Assembly (NCBI RefSeq): GCF_002105155.1
Contig: NW_019029053.1
Coordinates: forward strand, 62,001-126,000
Source of the DNA: Lobosporangium transversale
Lineage: Eukaryota > Mortierellomycota > Mortierellomycetes > Mortierellales > Mortierellaceae
Length of the DNA stretch: 64,000 nucleotides
Direction of reading: 5' to 3'
Shown: piece by piece, positions 22,539 to 62,043 of the stretch
Layout of the letters: every line of letters begins with the position of its first letter
Numbering within the stretch: the stretch's first letter is position 1
Made by a program: the position numbers and the translations under genes
The notes under the pieces: model-generated
The model's input: the letters and a program-made list of their open reading frames with translations, nothing else
Told to the model about the DNA's origin: nothing
Database searches by the model: none

Positions 22539-22950
22539 GTTTATAATCACAATGCACTATATCCACCATTCACTTTTCTCCACTTCTTTGCGCATCTAGC
22601 AACTTTTATCATTCTTTCATTCCTTGTTGATAGTCGTCTGTAGGTGATTGGATACTACACATTGAAGGCAAATTTGTAGTAAATTCATCAACCTTTTGTT
22701 TCGCTCATTTTCATACACCTACAAATACATCCTGCCTTTTTCTCTTCCTCTCTCTCTCTTATTTCAGGCTGATACAACAACATTTATCTCTTACCTTTCA
22801 CCTCATACTATTACACCTTCACACTCTCACACAGATTACAATCTTTTGCTTTCTTAAAGGTAAACCATGTCTAATCTAACAACTTCAACTTCAATCCAAA
22901 GCTGTATAAATTATCATTGCTTGCACTGTTTTATAATTTACTTTCTCTAG
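22539..22950. other. Leader region of the decayed XPG-like element
   Basis: Pyrimidine-rich sequence (TTTCTCTTCCTCTCTCTCTC near 22739-22760) like other promoters in the window. GCATCTAGCAACT at about 22591-22603 also occurs, in reverse complement, just inside the right inverted repeat, so the two repeat arms share patchy similarity beyond their 520-bp core. No coding sequence is seen. Confidence 0.45.
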
Positions 22951-24278
22951 ATAGGTATAAAAGGCCTCTATTCGTAGCTTTAAGGAGAGGCCTGCCACCA
23001 AAGGGGACTGATGTGCATGAGCTTGCTGCTGAACCCGATTCATTTTTTGAGTTGGATCTGCTTGGCACTTTCCACAGTGATATGCACAATATCATCCTAA
23101 GAAAATTTAACCATCAGATCTCTTTCACTGCCTGTGACCATGCTATGGCTAATTCTAAAGATCTTTAGTCCTCTTTCTATAGTGGCGATACACATTGATG
23201 GGCCTCACTGCAATGAAAAAGCCCGCACTTATAGAGACCGAGATGCTAAGCGTACAACAGCTGATGCAAAACTCGATACACTCATAGCCAACATGGAAAC
23301 CAAGTCCACTGAAGGGAAATGGAATCTCAGAGCAATATGGTTGCTATTAAAAAGAATCTTCGACAGCTCTACATATTCAGTCATAACGAGAAGAGGGAAC
23401 TCGCAACGCCATTTGGCCGATACAATAGCTTTGCAATCTGCCATTGTAGCAATGAGGCTGATGTATGTATTGCCATCAATGTACACTAACCAGTATCGCT
23501 ATACCTAGGAACTCTGACCTTCTCATCTATCCTTCTATACAAAGAGCTCTTCGTCCAATCCCTTGTCGCCACCACATGTATGCAGTATATGAGAAACAGG
23601 AGGTCCTGGAAGCCCTCGGGCATTCAAGTGGCATTCAACTCCTGGCCTACACCATTGTATCCGATAACGATTCCACCCCAAATATTCCAGTCTTTGGTCT
23701 TGCCACAAACACCGAGGCTATCTCAGCGCTCACTGACACTGATACCGAAAAGTTAGCGGAATCATATGTTCGTGAGGTCCATACCCGTAGCCATCGAACT
23801 CCTTCAGGAGGCCGATTTGACCATTCAATCAATGTTTTCCTCAATTGGGTTCAAACCCAGGCTTTGCAGCAACCAACCGCTGAAAGGCTTCTTCATTACC
23901 ATGATAGAATGAGGGCTGCAATATCTACTAGGTACCAAAACAAAAATAATCAAAGTAGGCTCCTTCAAATGAACATTTTTCAAAGTATATACAAAAAAAA
24001 GGCATCTAACCCTTGACATTGTTATTTCGTAATTGAATTGCTATCGACCTGTTTTCCCTACTAAGGAAAGGGAACTCTCTTCCAAAAAATATGAGCTGAC
24101 CAACTGTAAACAACACGACCGTCCCGTCAGCTCTGCTCATCAAAGAAAGCCCAAGAAGAAAATGGAAAAGGAAAAGAAAGAGGATGAGAAAGAAGAGGCT
24201 AAGGAGGGAAAGAAGAAGAAAAAGAAGAATAAGGGAAGGCCAAGTAGATCAGAAAGATTGATAAATCTAGGAAGATGA
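22951..24278 (+). pseudogene. Decayed XPG-like half of an XPG-Fanzor element
   Basis: Pieces in several frames align with the N-terminal half of the 45-kb gene: GIKGLYS at 22954, RGLPPKGTDVHELA then LDLLGTFHSDM, IHIDGPHCNEKA, CSNEADVCIA, SRNSDLLIY, AVYEKQEVLEALG, and the junction motif YRPVFPTKERELSS followed by NCKQHDRP and a long Lys/Glu tract. The expected start codon reads ATA at 22951. Stops and frameshifts interrupt the frame at several places, including near 22975, 23168, 23490 and 24016. The copy ends at 24278, in the Lys-rich linker; no RuvC half follows, and the PTC5-like gene's stop codon (opposite strand) lies 68 bp further on. It is therefore an inactive, 3'-truncated element copy. 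Confidence 0.75.
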
Positions 24279-24345
24279 AGCAGACTACTGTACTGTATAT
24301 ATTAAGGAGCTGCTCATGCCTTCATTGGAGTTTATTGAAAATAAC

Positions 24346-40520: not shown

Positions 40521-42485
40521 CTACTCATTGCTGCTTCTCGACGTGTAAGTATCCACTTCATCCCTGCAGCTTGCACAAGTACGCACCAAGTCCTTCACTA
40601 TCTTTCGGATCTTCCGTTTCTTTGCAGAGCCTTGGCTAGTCTTCTGTCTGATGTGTTTAAGGCCTTCATGACTGAGTACTTCGTGATCTCCTGCTAAACG
40701 CTTCAATATTTGAAAGGTCACATCCATATCCATATCGGCAAGCGGTGAGCTTTCAGCTTCAGCAGGGCTGGAAGTAGCACTACTAGGTTCTGCTACGTAT
40801 TCGCTGCTTGTCCTATCTCCCACGGTCCTCTCCTGTTGCAGGGCTTCTTCAACTAGCTCTTGCTCATCCTTTTTCTGTACTACTTCGAAATGCCAGCCTT
40901 TGATCATAGAGACCTCAGCGATCAACTGCTGGAAGTATGCTCTCTCTTGATTTTTGTATCGGTTATGTCGAATAAGCAGCCGCATTTCTTCATCGACTGC
41001 CGGCCTTTGACAACGGAGACGCTCACGCATTTCAGTCGGAAGGATTGGCGTTTTGGCAAAACAGTTTCGAAGCGTATGTGGCTTGATGTAACTCCATGCC
41101 TCAGGGATTAGTGCCCATGCTTCGCCGTTAGAAATAGATTTTTTGTTGCCAAAATTCTGAACGAGATACGTTTCGGAAGTAAGTAATTCCAAGAACGCCC
41201 GCTTGAAAACGCTTATCACCCCAGCATCGAGAGGCTGAGTTACTGGAGTGGTAGTCGCTGTATTCGGATATGCCTCCAAGGGATCCCTTCCTCTGGAACG
41301 CGCATGTCGATGTCGTTGTGCGCTGTCGCGGAGTCAAGGAGAAGAAGTGTGGGTTGCCAAAGCTCATCATCAAACTTTTGCAACCACTTGATGAATATAC
41401 ATCGATTCATCCATCCTGAATCCGCTTTCTCTATAGTCATTTTCAATGCCTTATCTTGTTCGACTTGTCTCGCGAAGTGTTTGGCTAACGAATATCAAAC
41501 AAATGCAATTGTCACGAAAAGAAATAAGAAAAAATAACAGCCAACATAGACTATTACATTCAATGTATTACCGATGACTAATGGCTTCAATGAAGTCATT
41601 GTATTGGCCATAGAGAGAGAAGTGCCAGAGGCATTGATGCAAAATAAGATAGACACCTTGCATTCTCTGAGAGCTTTGGCACCAGTTTTGGAGGTTGGTA
41701 TCGTATAGGATTTGGAATCCAGCTCTTTCAAATAGAACCCTGTTTCATCGCAATTAAATATATTATCGGGGGTGTACTCAGCGCAGATCTGGCGAATTTT
41801 TTTGAACTCAGGTTCAATTGCGTCCAAGAGCTGCCTCTCCATGAAGTTGACAATATGAAATACGATGGCGCTTCTTAAAAGTATCGAACCAATAAGCCGA
41901 AAATGATGGCTGTGCTTCAGATAGTGTATTTCCTGATTCATCTTGAAGATCACAGAGAACCGTGTATGTTACATTGGCTGCGTGTTTGAGCATCCTGCCG
42001 TTGATATACCGACTTTTCTTTCGTTGTCGCTGTATCCAGTAGTAGAGGACTTCCTCGAGAACCACGTTTTTTCGCTCAACGATATAATGTGAGCCCGGGG
42101 GGTATACCTCGGCTGCAGCTCGAATTTTGTTTTCATTATGAAGTATTCGCTGAAAGCTACTTTTTGGAACGTATAACTCCTATTAAGCATCCGAAAGATT
42201 TAGGAGAAAGCTTGACTGGGAGGCAGTCTTTCCGCTGTTCAAGGTAATGATAAATATCCAATAGTTCAACTTGTTTTTCAAGGGAGTATGAGAACCTAGA
42301 CATCGGGATCTCAAACTGTTTGGGGTTTGGGAGCAAAATAACAGCGGACATGTCATTTTTTCGGGCACTCTTTAAAAGCTCACTATACCTCTGTTCATGA
42401 GTGCGGTCGAGCTCTTCCAGCTCGCACTTTGTATATTTTTTATCATACTTAGTGGGAGGAGAAGGAGTTTTTTATTGTTTGGCAT
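40521..42485 (-). pseudogene. Pogo-like DDE transposase, frame broken
   Basis: The family is clear: an N-terminal helix-turn-helix (VPKSSFQRIL), a CENP-B-type DNA-binding domain (VLEEVLYYWIQRQRKK, FDTFKKRHRISY) and the DDE catalytic core with NCDETGFYLKELDS, LLLLDSATAHND and TTPVTQPLDAGVIS, giving the three carboxylates as D, D and D. One clean intron (41485-41571) is supported. The frame shifts at an A6 run near 42468-42473, near 42180-42200 (which could be a 43-nt intron instead), near 41824-41838 and near 41270-41285. Unless these are sequencing errors, no full transposase can be made. The domestic-looking tail after the DDE core is rich in Glu, Ser and Lys and ends at 40521. Confidence 0.8.
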
Positions 42486-43150: not shown

Positions 43151-45077
43151 TATTTAAAATTCTAACCGTATGTCTTTAGTGTCTTGTTAATAAGCAATTT
43201 CTTGACAGAGAAGCAAGCCTGTTAGACTTGTGCTCTGATGTGGACACTAGAAGATTATGTAACCATTTTTCCAGTTACCAAAATAATATCCCTTAAACCG
43301 TCAACCTGGCAAATTTGCCATTATAAATGGGCTTAAAATCCAGCAATTCATGGGCATGTCGAAATAAATGACCGAAAACTAAACTGTTATGGAGCTATCC
43401 TGGCTTCTTTATTTGTGCCAATAAAAAAACTCTTGAAGGCTTTCGCATGACACTAGCATCCTCTTAGGGGGCCCATTGTGTTGTTTATTTATTGACTGGT
43501 GTAATAGCAGTGATAATATTCGCCATAGTATCGACTTGAAAGGAGGGCAATCTGAGTTGATTCATTCTACCGCACCTTAGAGCTTGCTCGGCAAGACTTG
43601 ATTTGTCACATCATTTGCTTCCTCATACCCAAGATGATACAAATATCTCTGTTGGAGTGAGTGGTGAACTGTGTGTGGTTCAGATGTAGTGGACATAAAC
43701 GGCGAAAGAATGCATCGAAAGGATGTGAGCGGTTATGAGAGCAAGGAAGAAGGGGTTGGTATGCCTGTTCAAGTCCTTGGCAAGAGGGCATGAGTAGCAG
43801 TTGTGATCACAAGTTGATTTCGGTGAGTCTGCATAACAATGGTATAGTTTCTAGACCCTATCTTCCACGTACAGCATTGCATTATTGGTGTTTTCAGACC
43901 TGGCGCCAATCATGCGAGGTATTTCTTTTTCCGAGGATTCCTTGTGTTAAACGGCCAGACAGAAAGCTTAAAAGACATACAGACACAACGGTGAAAAAAA
44001 TGTATGTGAGCAAACAGTTGCTGTGTTTATTTGTTGTCTGCACATGCCTTCTATCCCTAGGAAAGGATGAAACGCGTCGGTATTAATCTCGCTTCTGTAA
44101 TTCTAAATGCATATATTTTGGCGATTGGTATCAACTATCAAGTTTGCACATACACACACCAAACGACCGCCAAAAACCACCACTCTCGCTTCTGCTCTCC
44201 CTCCATCCACAAGGCGCTGCGCAATATCACCATTAACAAGGCACCGTCCAGTAAGAAAGGGTGCTTAGCTAGCTTTTACTCCAAGCAATAAGCACATCAC
44301 CTATCTCCGCCATTGATGCCGGAACCTGAGAGCCAACGAATATCTCTGCTTTAACGCAATAGTACTGGGGCTGTTGGAGCAAAGAACGACATCTGAATCC
44401 ATTCTCTGATAAAAAAGACTTTTTTTCTTTAGTTGTTACCTATAATCACCGAGTCATATCTGTCAATGCATTTATTACCCCTGTTCAAAATTATAAATAT
44501 TCTTTTATTCATTAAATTCCTCACAAAGCACAAAACGAGAGCCAGTGCAAACAAAAGAAATTGAAAAAAAAAAAAAACTGTGTAACAAAGGATCGACATC
44601 GACACTGTATGCTGTAGATGGAGATGATTTTTTCGAATGCTCACTTTGGTATCTCAATGCTATTGTTTCCAATCTGCCGTTCATGCGAGAGCTTGTATTT
44701 ATTTGTCAATCTCTGCTATTGACTGGGACAAAACCCCAATCCAAACAAAGGAACTGAATAAAGATTGATGTGGCCTGTGAAGCAAAGGATCGATATCAAA
44801 ACTATATGAGACAATGATAAAACTCATCATCAATCCAGGATATAAAAAGGGATCATTGTCTTCCTCCTTCAAAGGCCCATCCCTTTTACCACTGCCACTT
44901 GTTCCTGTATCTTTCCCTCAATATTCTTTATCTATTCGCTTTGAATCTTTACACCATAAAAAAGCTCATCCTTTTATACCTTTGTCGCCCCTTTTTTTTT
45001 TTTTTTTTTTCTTTTTCATTTCTTTTCATCACCACCATTTTTCCATTTTTCTTTCTCTTTTCGCTTAGATATTGACC
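43151..45077. other. Intergenic region upstream of the XPG-Fanzor gene
   Basis: No gene is recognised. Near 43308-43370 GGCAAATTTGCC followed by TTCATGGGCA resembles the inverted-repeat arms, in which GGGCAAATTTGCCC is followed by ACTCATGGGCAGATC; this may be a diverged third copy of that leader. AAAGGATCGACATC near 44587 and AAAGGATCGATATC near 44785 form a short direct repeat. The last 100 bp are strongly pyrimidine-rich, the probable promoter and leader of the next gene. Confidence 0.45.
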
Positions 45078-48000
45078 ATGGGGCTGAAGTCCTTCTTCAA
45101 ACTGGTTGCGGATCGCGGGGTTTTACCTTCGGAAACTGACGTGGGCACTTGGCGGCAAATCCTGACCATTCTGTTCATTTAGATCTCCTCGGTACGTTCT
45201 ATTACGACATCCTCCGCAGAGTCGTCCATGCAAAGATGAAAAACGAAACCATCATTGATGTAGGAAGGTCCCTGGCACTCGAGATAAAGGATCTTTTCAC
45301 AACGGACAACCTGACTATACATATTGATGGGGAACCTTGTACTGAGAAAGAAAAAGCAAGGACAGAACGGCAAGCCATAAGACAAAAAAATATGGACGCT
45401 TTGGAGAACAATATGAGCACCTTCGAGAGAAATTCTCGGAGTGGGGTATGGACTCGTCCTCAAGTCATGAGGCGCATCCAGAAGGGTCTTCGAGAAGTCC
45501 ACACCCTGAGCGTCCAGGACAAGGATCAGCTGGCAACAGGCCTTAGTTCTGTCTTCGATGTCTGTCTGTGTGCATATGAAGCGGACCCATGCATAGGGTG
45601 CCATGATGAGGAGAATGATAGGATCGTGATATCCCAAGACTCTGATTTTTTTGCGTACGAACGAGTCTGCTTCCTAGTGCGACCCCTTCCGCACCGTAGA
45701 CGGAAGTTTGGGGTTTACGACGTAGACAACGTTATCCAAGCACTAAGACTGCCAACACACGCGCATCTGGTGTTTTTCTGTGCCATCGCAGGCAATGACT
45801 ACTCAAGGAACCTCGAGACGTTAGGCCCGGTTAATAATCTTCGATTAGTTCGAAAGGTTGCGTGGAACAAGACCTACAATAAAATGCTTCAAGATTACCT
45901 CGGGGAAGCTAATAAGGTGTTGGGAAGGAACGTAGCCTCTGAGGAAGGCCGTTTCAGTGTAGCTCTCCGCATTTTTACTTCCGGCCATCAAACGTCGGCC
46001 CAAGCGTTACCATCGAACAATGAGTTCAATAACTTCAAGCGGCGTCTACTCAATGGAAAGGATCTTCGCCATAGAATGGCTCAGCAAAGGCGAGCGCAGC
46101 GTCGCAGAACGTAAGAAAGCTCAAGCTATAGTTTTTGGCCTTGAAACCAGACGTCCCCAATACTAATCGTTAGTCCCTTTCTTGAATAATGTAGAGGCGT
46201 ACCATCATTCTATATAGCGGAAGGGTCACATAGGAACCAGTTCCGGCCCATCTTTTCTGACAAGGCGAGCATATTGAATGGGCGCACAGTTGATATCAGT
46301 AACTGCCGTCAGCACGATAGGCCGGGCCTTAAGCATCCACCACGTCGGAAAAAGGCAAAAAAGAAGCAACAGAAAAAACAAAAGCGGAAGCACAAAGGCA
46401 AGAAGCCCCACAGGGCTAAAAAAGAAGGTGCACCAATTAGGAACTTGAAGGATGCTACGAAGGTTGACCACAGCTACAGCAGTAAGCACCCTATCAAGGC
46501 CTTAACAATTGGGTCCCTTAAGGCCTCCATGGCAAGGAAAGGCGGACTGGACGCAGATGAAAGGGATAGTATTGCAAGCCAGATCCGAGGGGCAGTTGTT
46601 GTCCTCAACCGACTACGCCGCTATGCATACTGGGTGATTGCCTTGGACATTGAGAGGATCATGCGGTTACCAGGGGCAGCAAAGTCGAGGAAAAAGGCAC
46701 TGGACGAGGTCTTGGATAGCAATGATTATTCCTTCCGTCTCGCCACCCTTCTTTTGAGTGGTCAAGGTGGCCCCAATTCAGCTTACGCGAGGGCAAAGAA
46801 ACAAGGAAAGGCGGTAGAAACGCCCCATCATCACCTCGCTTATGAACATTTCAAGGCCACCACTGAACTTTCCCCAATAAAGGATATAGACATCACATTG
46901 GGGGACGTCCAAGGCTTTGATCCCAAAAAGATCACATTTCCAAGAGCGTCAGACTTACTAATGGGCCAAGTACAGACATCATTAAGGCAGCACTACAGGA
47001 ACGCAATGGTATAGCTTGTGTAAGGTATTTTCATGCATATTCTGCAATCAAATGCTCTTTATTCACACCTTTTTTTTTTCTTTTTTTTTCTTTCTAGTTT
47101 GATGTCGAGAAAACAAACGAAGATATGAGTGACATTGAGTTTTTTTTGCGGGAGAACAAAAAAGTGAAAAAATACTCAGACTTTCCTACGTCCCCCTGGT
47201 CACCCGGGTATGTGTATCTGTCTGAACACGCCCTAGTTGACATCCTCTGGGCGAACGAAGATACCAAGCAGCTGCTGGAGCGTATTCTGCCTCTCAATAA
47301 TGCTTCCAAGACTGCAATGTATGAGTGTGTACAGGGAACAAAAGGGGTTTTGATACAGGCTCTCTTTTGTGACATTGGAGGTGATCGCATGGTTCGTGGA
47401 TATCAAGACAAAGTATCCCTGCAGTCACAGGACAAAGATCTAACTCGGTTCAAACTCAAAGGAACGATTTCTACCAACGGTCTAGTTCTGAATCTACTTG
47501 CCTATGACACAACCCAGACGAAGAGACAGCAGCAGTCTGACGTAGATGAAGAAGACCCCAGCCAAGAACTGGAGCTTTCTCAGGGATTTCTCAACACGAC
47601 GTGTTCAAAGGCGGCCGGTGAAGACCTGACAGATGAAGACTACGCAAACATAAACTGGAAGAGGAGCTCCAAGCTGCTTGAAAACGTTGAGCTCACATTC
47701 AACAAACCAGGGCGATGCCTATCCGCAAACACCACAACTATCGTCGGATGTGATCCTGGTATTGTTAACGCCCTTACGTTTTCCTCGCTGGACCCTCACA
47801 ACCCTAACTTGCGGCAAACGGTAAAGGTGAGAAGCAGGTTCTTGTACCTCCCTGTCCTCCGCTTCAATCACCTGTTGAACAAAAGGAAGCGTGAAAAAGG
47901 AATGATTGAGGTTGAGAGCGCCATCCCTGTGTTTGGAAGGGATACGTATAATGAGTACTTTCAATGGATGAACGAGGAGTCTCAGACACAGACAGGATCA

Positions 48001-48576
48001 ACGAATTTGGATGTGCTTCAAGAGTTCTACGAGTCCAGATGGCACCTGAAAAAAAAAATGGGGCCTACGAAAGGCTCAACGAGCTACGTTCGACTACGCG
48101 GTACAGCGAGTGTTGAAGATGCTTGGGGATAAAGGAGTACTTGTCGTCGGCCTGGGGTCCTTTGAAAGTAGTAAAGGAGTTCCCAGCAAGCACACTGCTA
48201 TAACGAGACATCTTGTCACACAGGTATGGCTTTTTTTAAAAAAGTAAGCAAAGCTGGAAAGCCATAGAACCCTTGCTAATAAACGACTGCCATTTGAAAC
48301 GCTTAGGTCAAAGCACGAGGACACTTCGCTGTAGGAGCGCACGAATTTTACACCAGCGCCCGCTGTCCCCAACCCCTCTGCGATAGCTTTTTAGAGACGG
48401 TGTACCCTCGCTCTGAATATTCCAGGACATGTAAGGTATTCTTCGACTGTGACGCAGTAGGGGCGGAAAACATCGCAAGAATCGGTCTTGCTCAAATTGA
48501 GAGACAAGAGAGACCTGCAAAGTACAAGCCCACGGAAGAGTCGCCTGCTCCAGCTGCAAAGCGCGCACGACGCTAG
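45078..48576 (+). pseudogene. XPG/FEN-like nuclease fused to Fanzor (TnpB-like) nuclease; two frame breaks
   Basis: Four segments (45078-46110, 46195-47008, 47098-48223, 48307-48576) would encode about 1,080 aa. Segment 1 is XPG/FEN-like: MGLKSFFKLVADRG, LDLLGTFYYD, IHIDGEP, YEADPCIG, SQDSDFFAY and GNDYSRNL supply all the expected acidic motifs. A GTAAGA...GTAG intron then joins in frame to FRPIFSDKASILNG and a long Lys/Arg linker (KKAKKKQQKKQKRKHKGKK). The remainder is Fanzor-like: IVGCDPGIVNALTF (RuvC-I), VVGLGSFESSKG, GAHEFYTSARCPQPLC (the relocated Glu typical of Fanzor plus zinc-finger cysteines) and FFDCDAVGAENIAR (RuvC-III). Two frame breaks are seen: near 45136, where two extra bases follow ETDV, and in an A10 run at 48049-48058, where nine A restore HLKKKWGLRKAQ. 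These may be sequencing errors or true inactivation. Fanzors are RNA-guided nucleases carried by eukaryotic transposons. Confidence 0.8.
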
Positions 48577-48586
48577 ACACAAGTAT

Positions 48587-48606
48587 TTGGGTGCCGGCAC
48601 ACCCAC
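48587..48606 (+). ncRNA. Candidate hairpin just after the Fanzor stop
   Basis: GGGTGCCGGCACACCC, containing the perfect palindrome GTGCCGGCAC at 48591-48600, starts about 12 bp after the stop codon. Guide RNAs of TnpB and Fanzor proteins usually come from the 3' end of the gene and its flank and contain hairpins there. Position and shape fit, but nothing else supports this. Confidence 0.2.
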
Positions 48607-48769
48607 AAAAAATTTGTAAGTTCTGTTTATTTTCGTCTCCTGTATCCATCCTCTCTAATCTTTTGCCCCTGAATTTCTGGACTAACTTTAAAAACCGTAC
48701 AGATCAACAGATACGTCTCAGTTATGTCACTAAACTGTAAGTCACAGCTGCTTTAAAAGGCAAGATATG

Positions 48770-58060: not shown

Positions 58061-59309
58061 GATTTGATGGAATGTTAAGAATGTGGGGATAGGATTGATG
58101 AAGAGTGATTTACAGCTGTCAAAACCATGTCGCGAAATCTACACAGTGCACTGATGCCTGGTAGGAGAATAACACAAGTCTCTCTCAAAATATGTCATAC
58201 ACAAGGCTGGGTCAGCTGATTTATTACTTTGTACAGTAAGTTTGTTCAGGCGCGCTTGGACACCCATTTTTGCTTCCTATTCTGTATATCTGCTATAACA
58301 GTTTGCCTTTCCCTATGTGGAAGTCGTGCTATGCTCGTATCAATCGCAAAGAAGCCCAATCTCCTCCATACATCCATCACCTCGCTATTATTCTGTCAAG
58401 ACAATTCAGCGACAGCTTCCTCTCACTCTATTCTTTTTCTTTCCTTCTCTTCAGCTCTCTCTACCTCTAGTTGTCGCAGCAAAGATGGTGAGAGGAAGCC
58501 TTCGAGAGGCTGTCCAAGATGGTCATTGGTATCGACCGTGTTTCGGGCCTGCTCGAGTTAGGTACGTGCAGGTGCAGTATTGCATTTGACATTGATAACG
58601 AGCAGTAGAAAAAGTAAGTGAGAATAAGATGTGGGTCCACACACCACACCTATGGGGCATTTATTCATTTCTTAGTAGAGGGACTTGCACCAGGTAACTA
58701 CGTATCTACCTATAAGATGACATGGGTTCATTCAAAACCCTCATGTCAAAGATTTATCGCGTCTTTGTGCGACGCGTTATTGCCACTAATTTCTGCTGCA
58801 ATTTTTTAGCGTATTAATTTTGGTGTGTTTTTTACTAGTATTTTATCATTAATTTTCTTGGTATTTTCTAGGCCATCATTATATTGCATGCTGTGAAATA
58901 TGCAACAGAATCCATCGCGGACCCTCTCTGCAAGGTACATGTGCTTGCAAGGAACTCTTTGTTTTTCATGACCAGGACATGTGCAAGACAGTGATCCTAT
59001 GCGATATGAAACTTTGTCAATTATAATGTTTCAGATTAAAAATATTTACCAACTGACAAAGTTTCAGATCGAATAGGATTACTGGACCTCTTAAAAAAGT
59101 TTAGTTCATCCTTCTGCTCTTTTCTAGTAGCTGCTACTCCGACTCCTGGAGTTCTTAAGATTGTTGATAATGTATGCCTGACTTTCATGAGATGGATATA
59201 GTCTACTCTCGACATCTACACAGGCCTTGGGGTTATGAATTGCTACGATCTCTCTTTGCGCCATCTACCTTCAATAATTGTGGGTTGGTACGTCACCTTT
59301 GTTCGGAGA

Positions 59310-61872: not shown

Positions 61873-62043
61873 GTTGCGGCAAATGAAAGATGAAGAACAG
61901 AAAATTAGAAAAGATGCCCAAAGTAGTATTGTTTTCAATGTGGCTTAGACGACTTTTTCTTTTTTTTTTTTTTTTTTATTTTAAATGCCAGACAATCCTC
62001 AACATCTCTCAACACTTCTTCCCTTTAGTTATTCCTATTCACT
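61873..62043. promoter_or_regulatory. Divergent promoter between zinc-motif gene and FKBP gene
   Basis: Only 171 bp separate the two start codons. The interval contains a T-rich tract (about 61958-61980) and then CAACATCTCTCAACACTTCTT-like pyrimidine-rich leader sequence before the FKBP start. Confidence 0.45.

Follow-up and report, generated by a model that had tools for sequence, protein, structure and literature searches.

Can a single transposon-encoded chain join a Fanzor, the eukaryotic TnpB-like nuclease with a RuvC active site, to a second nuclease of the XPG/FEN type? Work on Fanzors treats them as RNA-guided nucleases with a single active site, and what they do for the transposon is an open question. 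The question is raised by a locus of the fungus Lobosporangium transversale. It lies in a 64,000-nucleotide stretch, hereafter the window (positions 62,001–126,000 of contig NW_019029053.1; C101:62001-126000 in our numbering), where a first-pass annotation made from the letters alone had placed such a fusion. We found a mobile element in which an XPG/FEN-type nuclease and a Fanzor are joined in frame, and this element has multiplied in the L. transversale genome. No description of an XPG–Fanzor fusion was found in the accessible portions of the literature searched (mostly open texts of PubMed Central, PMC; a mention elsewhere is possible). This agrees with the first-pass statement that no described Fanzor carries a flap endonuclease on its chain.

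Two nucleases on one conserved chain

The window element belongs to a family of repeats (family 1), and a second family of the same genome (family 2) has the same layout at about 30% protein identity. The XPG exon was open in all seven family-2 copies checked, and a genome search found 14 full-length copies of this exon at at least 97% identity, all of them open. Splicing by pattern worked for four of those seven copies. L024 alone was uninterrupted and gave a chain of 1,209 residues from four exons with GT-AG introns, and L021, L023 and L026 were interrupted on splicing. The single in-frame chain proposed for the window itself does not stand. Four base pairs are deleted from its exon 1 between 45147 and 45148, which shifts the frame, and the exon-3 A run near 48050 has one base more than its counterpart in the three copies that keep exon 3 open. 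The four base pairs are present in 8/8 other family-1 copies alignable there (12 tried). Judging by its sequence, the window element is dead and belongs to a family that was once active.

The first-pass annotation had asked whether the two parts are ever adjacent elsewhere. It turned out that annotated single chains with this architecture occur, among the matches listed, in four other genera (Benniella, Podila, Mortierella and Linnemannia). With Lobosporangium, represented by the L024 reading, the fusion is present in five genera of Mortierellaceae. The 34 protein relatives are those among the matches listed, and there may be others outside Mortierellaceae. The XPG profile, built partly from P0002, P0003, P0006 and P0007, matched 18 of the 34, these four included; some of the matches are partial, and the matching proteins are Benniella, Podila, Mortierella and Linnemannia records plus P0012. 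The remaining 16 gave no XPG profile match. Several of them are marked partial, and P0001 and P0027 look truncated, so we make no claim that solo Fanzor relatives exist. The motif FY.......N[QR][FY]R spans the join in 9/9 chains shown; in P0002, outside those nine, FY is absent and N.YRPVF is present. Pairwise distances of the two halves in 12 chains were correlated (r=0.80), and none of 2000 permutations gave a value as high, which fits one old fusion inherited together.

Adjacency in the genome was counted with all 150 RuvC match rows. A RuvC match lies 0.9–2.2 kb downstream on the same strand for 31 of the 32 long XPG matches, the lone exception being C56. Within 6 kb upstream, no long XPG match has a same-strand RuvC match (0/32). 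On the opposite strand within 6 kb there are seven, of which six are 183–186-bp antisense fragments and one comes from a neighbouring copy. This adjacency is beyond chance. In some copies most of the XPG exon is gone. Taken together, the comparisons indicate that the fusion of the XPG part and the Fanzor is real and conserved, and we regard the architecture as nearly certain.

The active sites of the two parts

By profile and by predicted fold, the N-terminal part is a FEN1/XPG/EXO1-type 5' nuclease. The acidic motifs reported for the window (LDLLG, IHIDG, YEAD, QDSD and GNDY) are all present. All profile matches with E < 0.05 were FEN1, RAD2/XPG or EXO1 chains. The predicted fold of the XPG part is confident (predicted local distance difference test, pLDDT, 90) and matches FEN1, RAD2 and EXO1. 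In the list of fold matches, 49 rows titled FEN1, EXO1, XPG/Rad2, T5-type or plastid exonuclease stand ahead of XRN2 at rank 50. Twelve of the 13 complete XPG parts, that of the window among them, retain all seven metal-binding acidic residues; in the thirteenth, from family-1 copy L013, one Asp has become Asn. In five further chains, aligned piecewise, every visible acidic residue is kept. The part thus resembles FEN1, XPG (RAD2) and EXO1 in these seven residues, in the predicted fold, in the N-terminal Met-Gly and in a region aligned to FEN1 residues 214–263. It differs from them in being transposon-encoded, in its fusion to a Fanzor and in its identity to solved structures of only about 11–18% in the fold comparison. 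The ratio of nonsynonymous to synonymous polymorphism (pN/pS) of the XPG exon is 0.26 in family 2 (10 segregating sites) and 0.60 in family 1 (four copies), and that of a 480-nt Fanzor piece in family 2 is 0.21; these figures rest on small samples.

The Fanzor-side profile (A6) matched the PDB entries 9b0l (TnpB-like L79, 6.1e-4) and 8gkh (S. punctatus Fanzor, 1.3e-3). In the window, the Lys-rich linker and the motifs GCDPG, HEFYTS and FDCDAVGAENI are present as had been reported, and we take the Glu of HEFYTS to be the relocated Glu of the RuvC site. The last Asp motif reads DCD in the window copy and DRD in P0003. Using Pfam, we found the Cas12f1-like TNB domain over its cut-off (26.3 bits) in L024 (30.4), P0003 (33.2), P0006 (29.2) and P0007 (33.4). 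It was not matched in P0002, P0005 and P0008, or in a scan of window exons 1–3; P0002 and P0005 stop short of the C-terminus. We also scanned the 34 proteins and L024 for four patterns (first RuvC Asp, relocated Glu, last Asp and C4 zinc finger). All four were present in 11 of the 35 chains: L024, P0003, P0006, P0007, P0009, P0012, P0010, P0013, P0015, P0019 and P0026. One or more were absent in the other 24, several of which are short or partial; the first-Asp pattern was missed in P0014 and P0021, the last pattern in P0025, and all four in P0031.

What the second nuclease may do

Several known systems can be set beside the fusion. The FRI domain of the Fanzor PpFz1 is an added cyclophilin-binding module, and TIGR-Tas systems have separable modular nuclease domains. 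Academ DNA transposons, which are based on a DDE transposase, are said to encode an XPG-type nuclease; to our knowledge they have no Fanzor part, and nothing usable on them as a precedent was found in the literature searched. In what we could consult of the sources, PpFz1 of Parasitella parasitica is likewise a fungal Fanzor with an added module, linked there to cyclophilin (PMC11423790), whereas the added part here is a nuclease. TIGR-Tas is RNA-guided and modular like the fusion, but prokaryotic and viral (PMC12045711, partial text). The available sections on the Fanzor1 protein SpuFz1 (PMC10432273) describe a nuclease of RuvC type that has a zinc-finger/TNB region at its C-terminus and is carried by repeated elements; these elements have no transposase between the repeats and conserved bases before the left end, as we find here. 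Unlike SpuFz1, which according to these sections has no FEN1/XPG on its chain, the fusion adds about 340 N-terminal residues and a long basic linker. The same sections report CA before the left repeat, CATA as the target-adjacent motif (TAM) and cleavage that leaves 5' overhangs. Cutting of R-loop flanks by XPG is also on record (PMC7286691, partial text).

We lean towards reading the locus as a Fanzor-carrying transposable element, the only recognised protein of which is the XPG–basic linker–Fanzor chain, and which couples a guided cut to 5' trimming. A guide RNA from the right end of the element would bring the Fanzor part onto a sister or homologous chromosome, where the RuvC site would cut the empty site. 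The tethered 5' nuclease would then trim whichever 5' overhang, flap or R-loop edge is exposed. Simple re-joining would thereby become harder, and the element would more readily be copied from the intact chromosome. RNA guidance is probable; that the XPG part acts on the guided cut is a tentative suggestion. End processing, a step after the cut, is suggested by the conserved joining of a structure-specific 5' nuclease to the Fanzor. The fusion allows a direct test of what a transposon gains from Fanzor cleavage, and the repair outcomes of such a naturally occurring chain with two nucleases could be unlike those of a Fanzor alone.

The left-flank bases are what a TAM-bearing target would leave, and they may instead be bases of the element end. 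With the left end of the window type, AC precedes TA in 12 of 15 family-1 insertions (two duplicated flanks counted once), and G precedes the end in 7/7 family-2 left ends examined. Read as TAMs, these bases would give about ACTA for family 1 and GTA for family 2 in Lobosporangium. In L019, a family-1 copy inserted at a family-2 end, the AC derives from the target. TA is found at both ends in most copies; empty insertion sites were not found for the copies searched.

A number of results weigh against a coupled, guided nuclease. None of the 13 family-1 copies, window included, yielded a complete reading; in five of them parts are missing or changed, and splice-site patterns gave no assembly. 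The last 47 residues of L024, past all catalytic motifs, are in a frame different from that of the sister copies. For these two reasons none of the copies we read is perfect to its end. Copies L010 and L013 of family 1 have an Asp changed to Asn in the DSD motif. Among 11 insertions with a variant left end, TA is preceded by T in 10 and by AC in one, so these bases may be part of the element end rather than of a target motif. In family 1, the last 60–134 nt of the right end fold no better than shuffles. In family 2 only the last 60 nt fold better than shuffles (z -2.1 to -2.7 in four copies), with z of about -0.8 for the last 120 nt in three of these four. The window XPG exon scored 15.4 bits against a Pfam XPG_I cut-off of 24.9; P0003 scored 13.0 and a related locus with a RuvC match downstream (C13:672316) 25.9, above the cut-off. 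The XPG part was modelled confidently, and the full-length model of the fusion (pLDDT 46) was unusable and discarded.

It is possible, albeit unlikely, that the XPG part works in mobility itself by processing element ends or strand-transfer intermediates, the fusion replacing a classical transposase. Indeed, no transposase was recognised among the open reading frames (ORFs) of the listed family-1 and family-2 copies (Pfam was not run on each). Family-2 copies are mostly 97–99% alike with different flanks, and they end in imperfect inverted sequences of 16 bp, TATAGCCCGTTCCATT and AATGGGACGGACTATA (41 pattern matches, part of them opened; reversed control, 0). However, Tc1/mariner-type transposases are abundant in the genome (119 match rows) and a Tc5-type gene lies beside the window element, so that mobilisation in trans can readily be pictured; nor do the Spu-1 Fanzor elements on record have a transposase within the repeats, as far as the accessible text goes (PMC10432273). 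A further reading, a self-sufficient one-protein transposon in which the guided Fanzor cut and FEN/XPG processing at a chosen site let host repair copy the element in without a classical transposase, is quite unlikely.

XRN-type relatives of the XPG fold process RNA, and the XPG part might similarly process the guide RNA or its own mRNA. We consider this improbable, because the profile matches below 0.05 were solely FEN1, RAD2/XPG and EXO1 and XRN2 came only behind the 49 rows of FEN1/EXO1/XPG type.

It is very improbable that the two parts are separate proteins, with the single chain being an effect of gene models and retention of intron 1 freeing the XPG nuclease. In family 1 a TAA in frame with the XPG part overlaps the donor of intron 1 (window 46108-46113), so that translation of unspliced RNA would stop there and yield a free XPG nuclease, and the 16 proteins with no XPG match point the same way. 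Against this stand the joining motif kept in all nine chains shown and several single-chain models; the XPG-less Lobosporangium proteins P0001 and P0027 are those that look truncated. In addition, P0012 has 1,183 residues and the longest contig of its source has 4,910 bases, which suggests that it is probably an uninterrupted reading. Finally, a captured repair nuclease riding with the Fanzor without a selected role is hardly credible: the pN/pS of family 1 and the acidic residue lost in two of its copies speak for it, but the acidic residues persist between genera at a mean identity of about 34%, and the pN/pS of family 2 is lower, albeit from 10 segregating sites only.

The window element, its copies and its neighbours

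The features of the window are collected in Table 1. Intron 1 has GT-AG borders at exactly the positions first given and joins the parts in phase; the gene structure had to be extended to three introns in all. The family-1 element is 5.4 kb long and multicopy, begins with TATCCC and ends with CAACAGATA, with a TA at either end and no long terminal inverted repeat seen. The sole ORF scanned in its 5' part (43739-44083) had no Pfam match. A search of the 42.7-Mb genome with exon 2 gave 122 match rows, fragments included. A second copy had been reported at 23 kb. A related copy does exist there, as an interrupted relic closer to family 2 than to the family of the window.

Table 1. Positions of the element, its gene and a related relic in the window
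Feature	Positions	Strand	Basis or remark
Whole transposable element, family 1	43287..48713	+	Comparison with 12 other family-1 copies; left-end and right-end searches
Element 5' part, no recognised gene, length varies among copies	43287..45077	+	Copy comparison
Exon 1, XPG/FEN1-like nuclease, frameshifted in the window copy	45078..46110	+	Profile and fold matches to FEN1, EXO1, RAD2
Intron 1, GT-AG, joins XPG and Fanzor parts in phase; matching position in family 2	46111..46194	+	
Exon 2, conserved junction motif (FYIAEGSHRNQFRPIF), Lys-rich linker, start of Fanzor-side region	46195..47008	+	
Intron 2, GT-AG	47009..47097	+	
Exon 3, Fanzor core, first RuvC Asp (GCDPG)	47098..48223	+	Relatives match solved Fanzor structures
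Intron 3, GT-AG	48224..48306	+	
Exon 4, relocated-Glu motif HEFYTS, zinc-finger region, last RuvC Asp region (FDCDAVGAENI)	48307..48576	+	
3' region up to the right end; expected place of a Fanzor guide RNA (candidate)	48577..48713	+	
Interrupted relic, family-2-like XPG exon 1 and start of exon 2	22681..24290	+	About 84% DNA identity to family 2

Several neighbouring genes were tried as partners and rejected. A Tc1/mariner transposase gene adjoins a truncated family-1 left end at L055 (C65:265600-271600); other close copies of this gene are not beside any of the 40 left-end places listed, and it looks like a separate repeat. At L031 (C84:866000-871100) a RecQ/DEAD-type helicase gene lies about 1 kb inward from a family-1 left end. 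Of its other near-full copies (C62, C14 and two on C84), only that on C14 is near a listed left end, on the other side; the helicase is probably a neighbouring or nested other repeat. A 9.2-kb pair of family-2 ends at C85, taken as a possible transposase-bearing element, is a family-2 copy with other insertions. No relative turned up when viral contigs were scanned twice (32 and 37 pattern matches), which argues weakly against a viral origin.

The Tc5-type transposase gene, broken, lies on the minus strand at 40524-42471, about 0.8 kb upstream of the window element, with HTH_Tnp_Tc5 and DDE_1 matches in two of the three pieces scanned. Locus L060 (C117:643640-643861) scores 27.0 bits for XPG_I, over the cut-off, with no RuvC match nearby, and is possibly a related transposon nuclease. 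The copies on C48 and C50 (L035 and L036) are mirror images with identical flanks, as if one region had been assembled twice. In seven family-2 loci a stretch of about 460–550 bp matches the antisense strand of Fanzor exon 3 of family 1 with about 85–86% identity (for example, L021 1990-2537 against window 47290-47841); it is either a nested remnant or retained for a reason. At 58616-58664 of the window, 49 bp are about 90% identical to a family-2 element.
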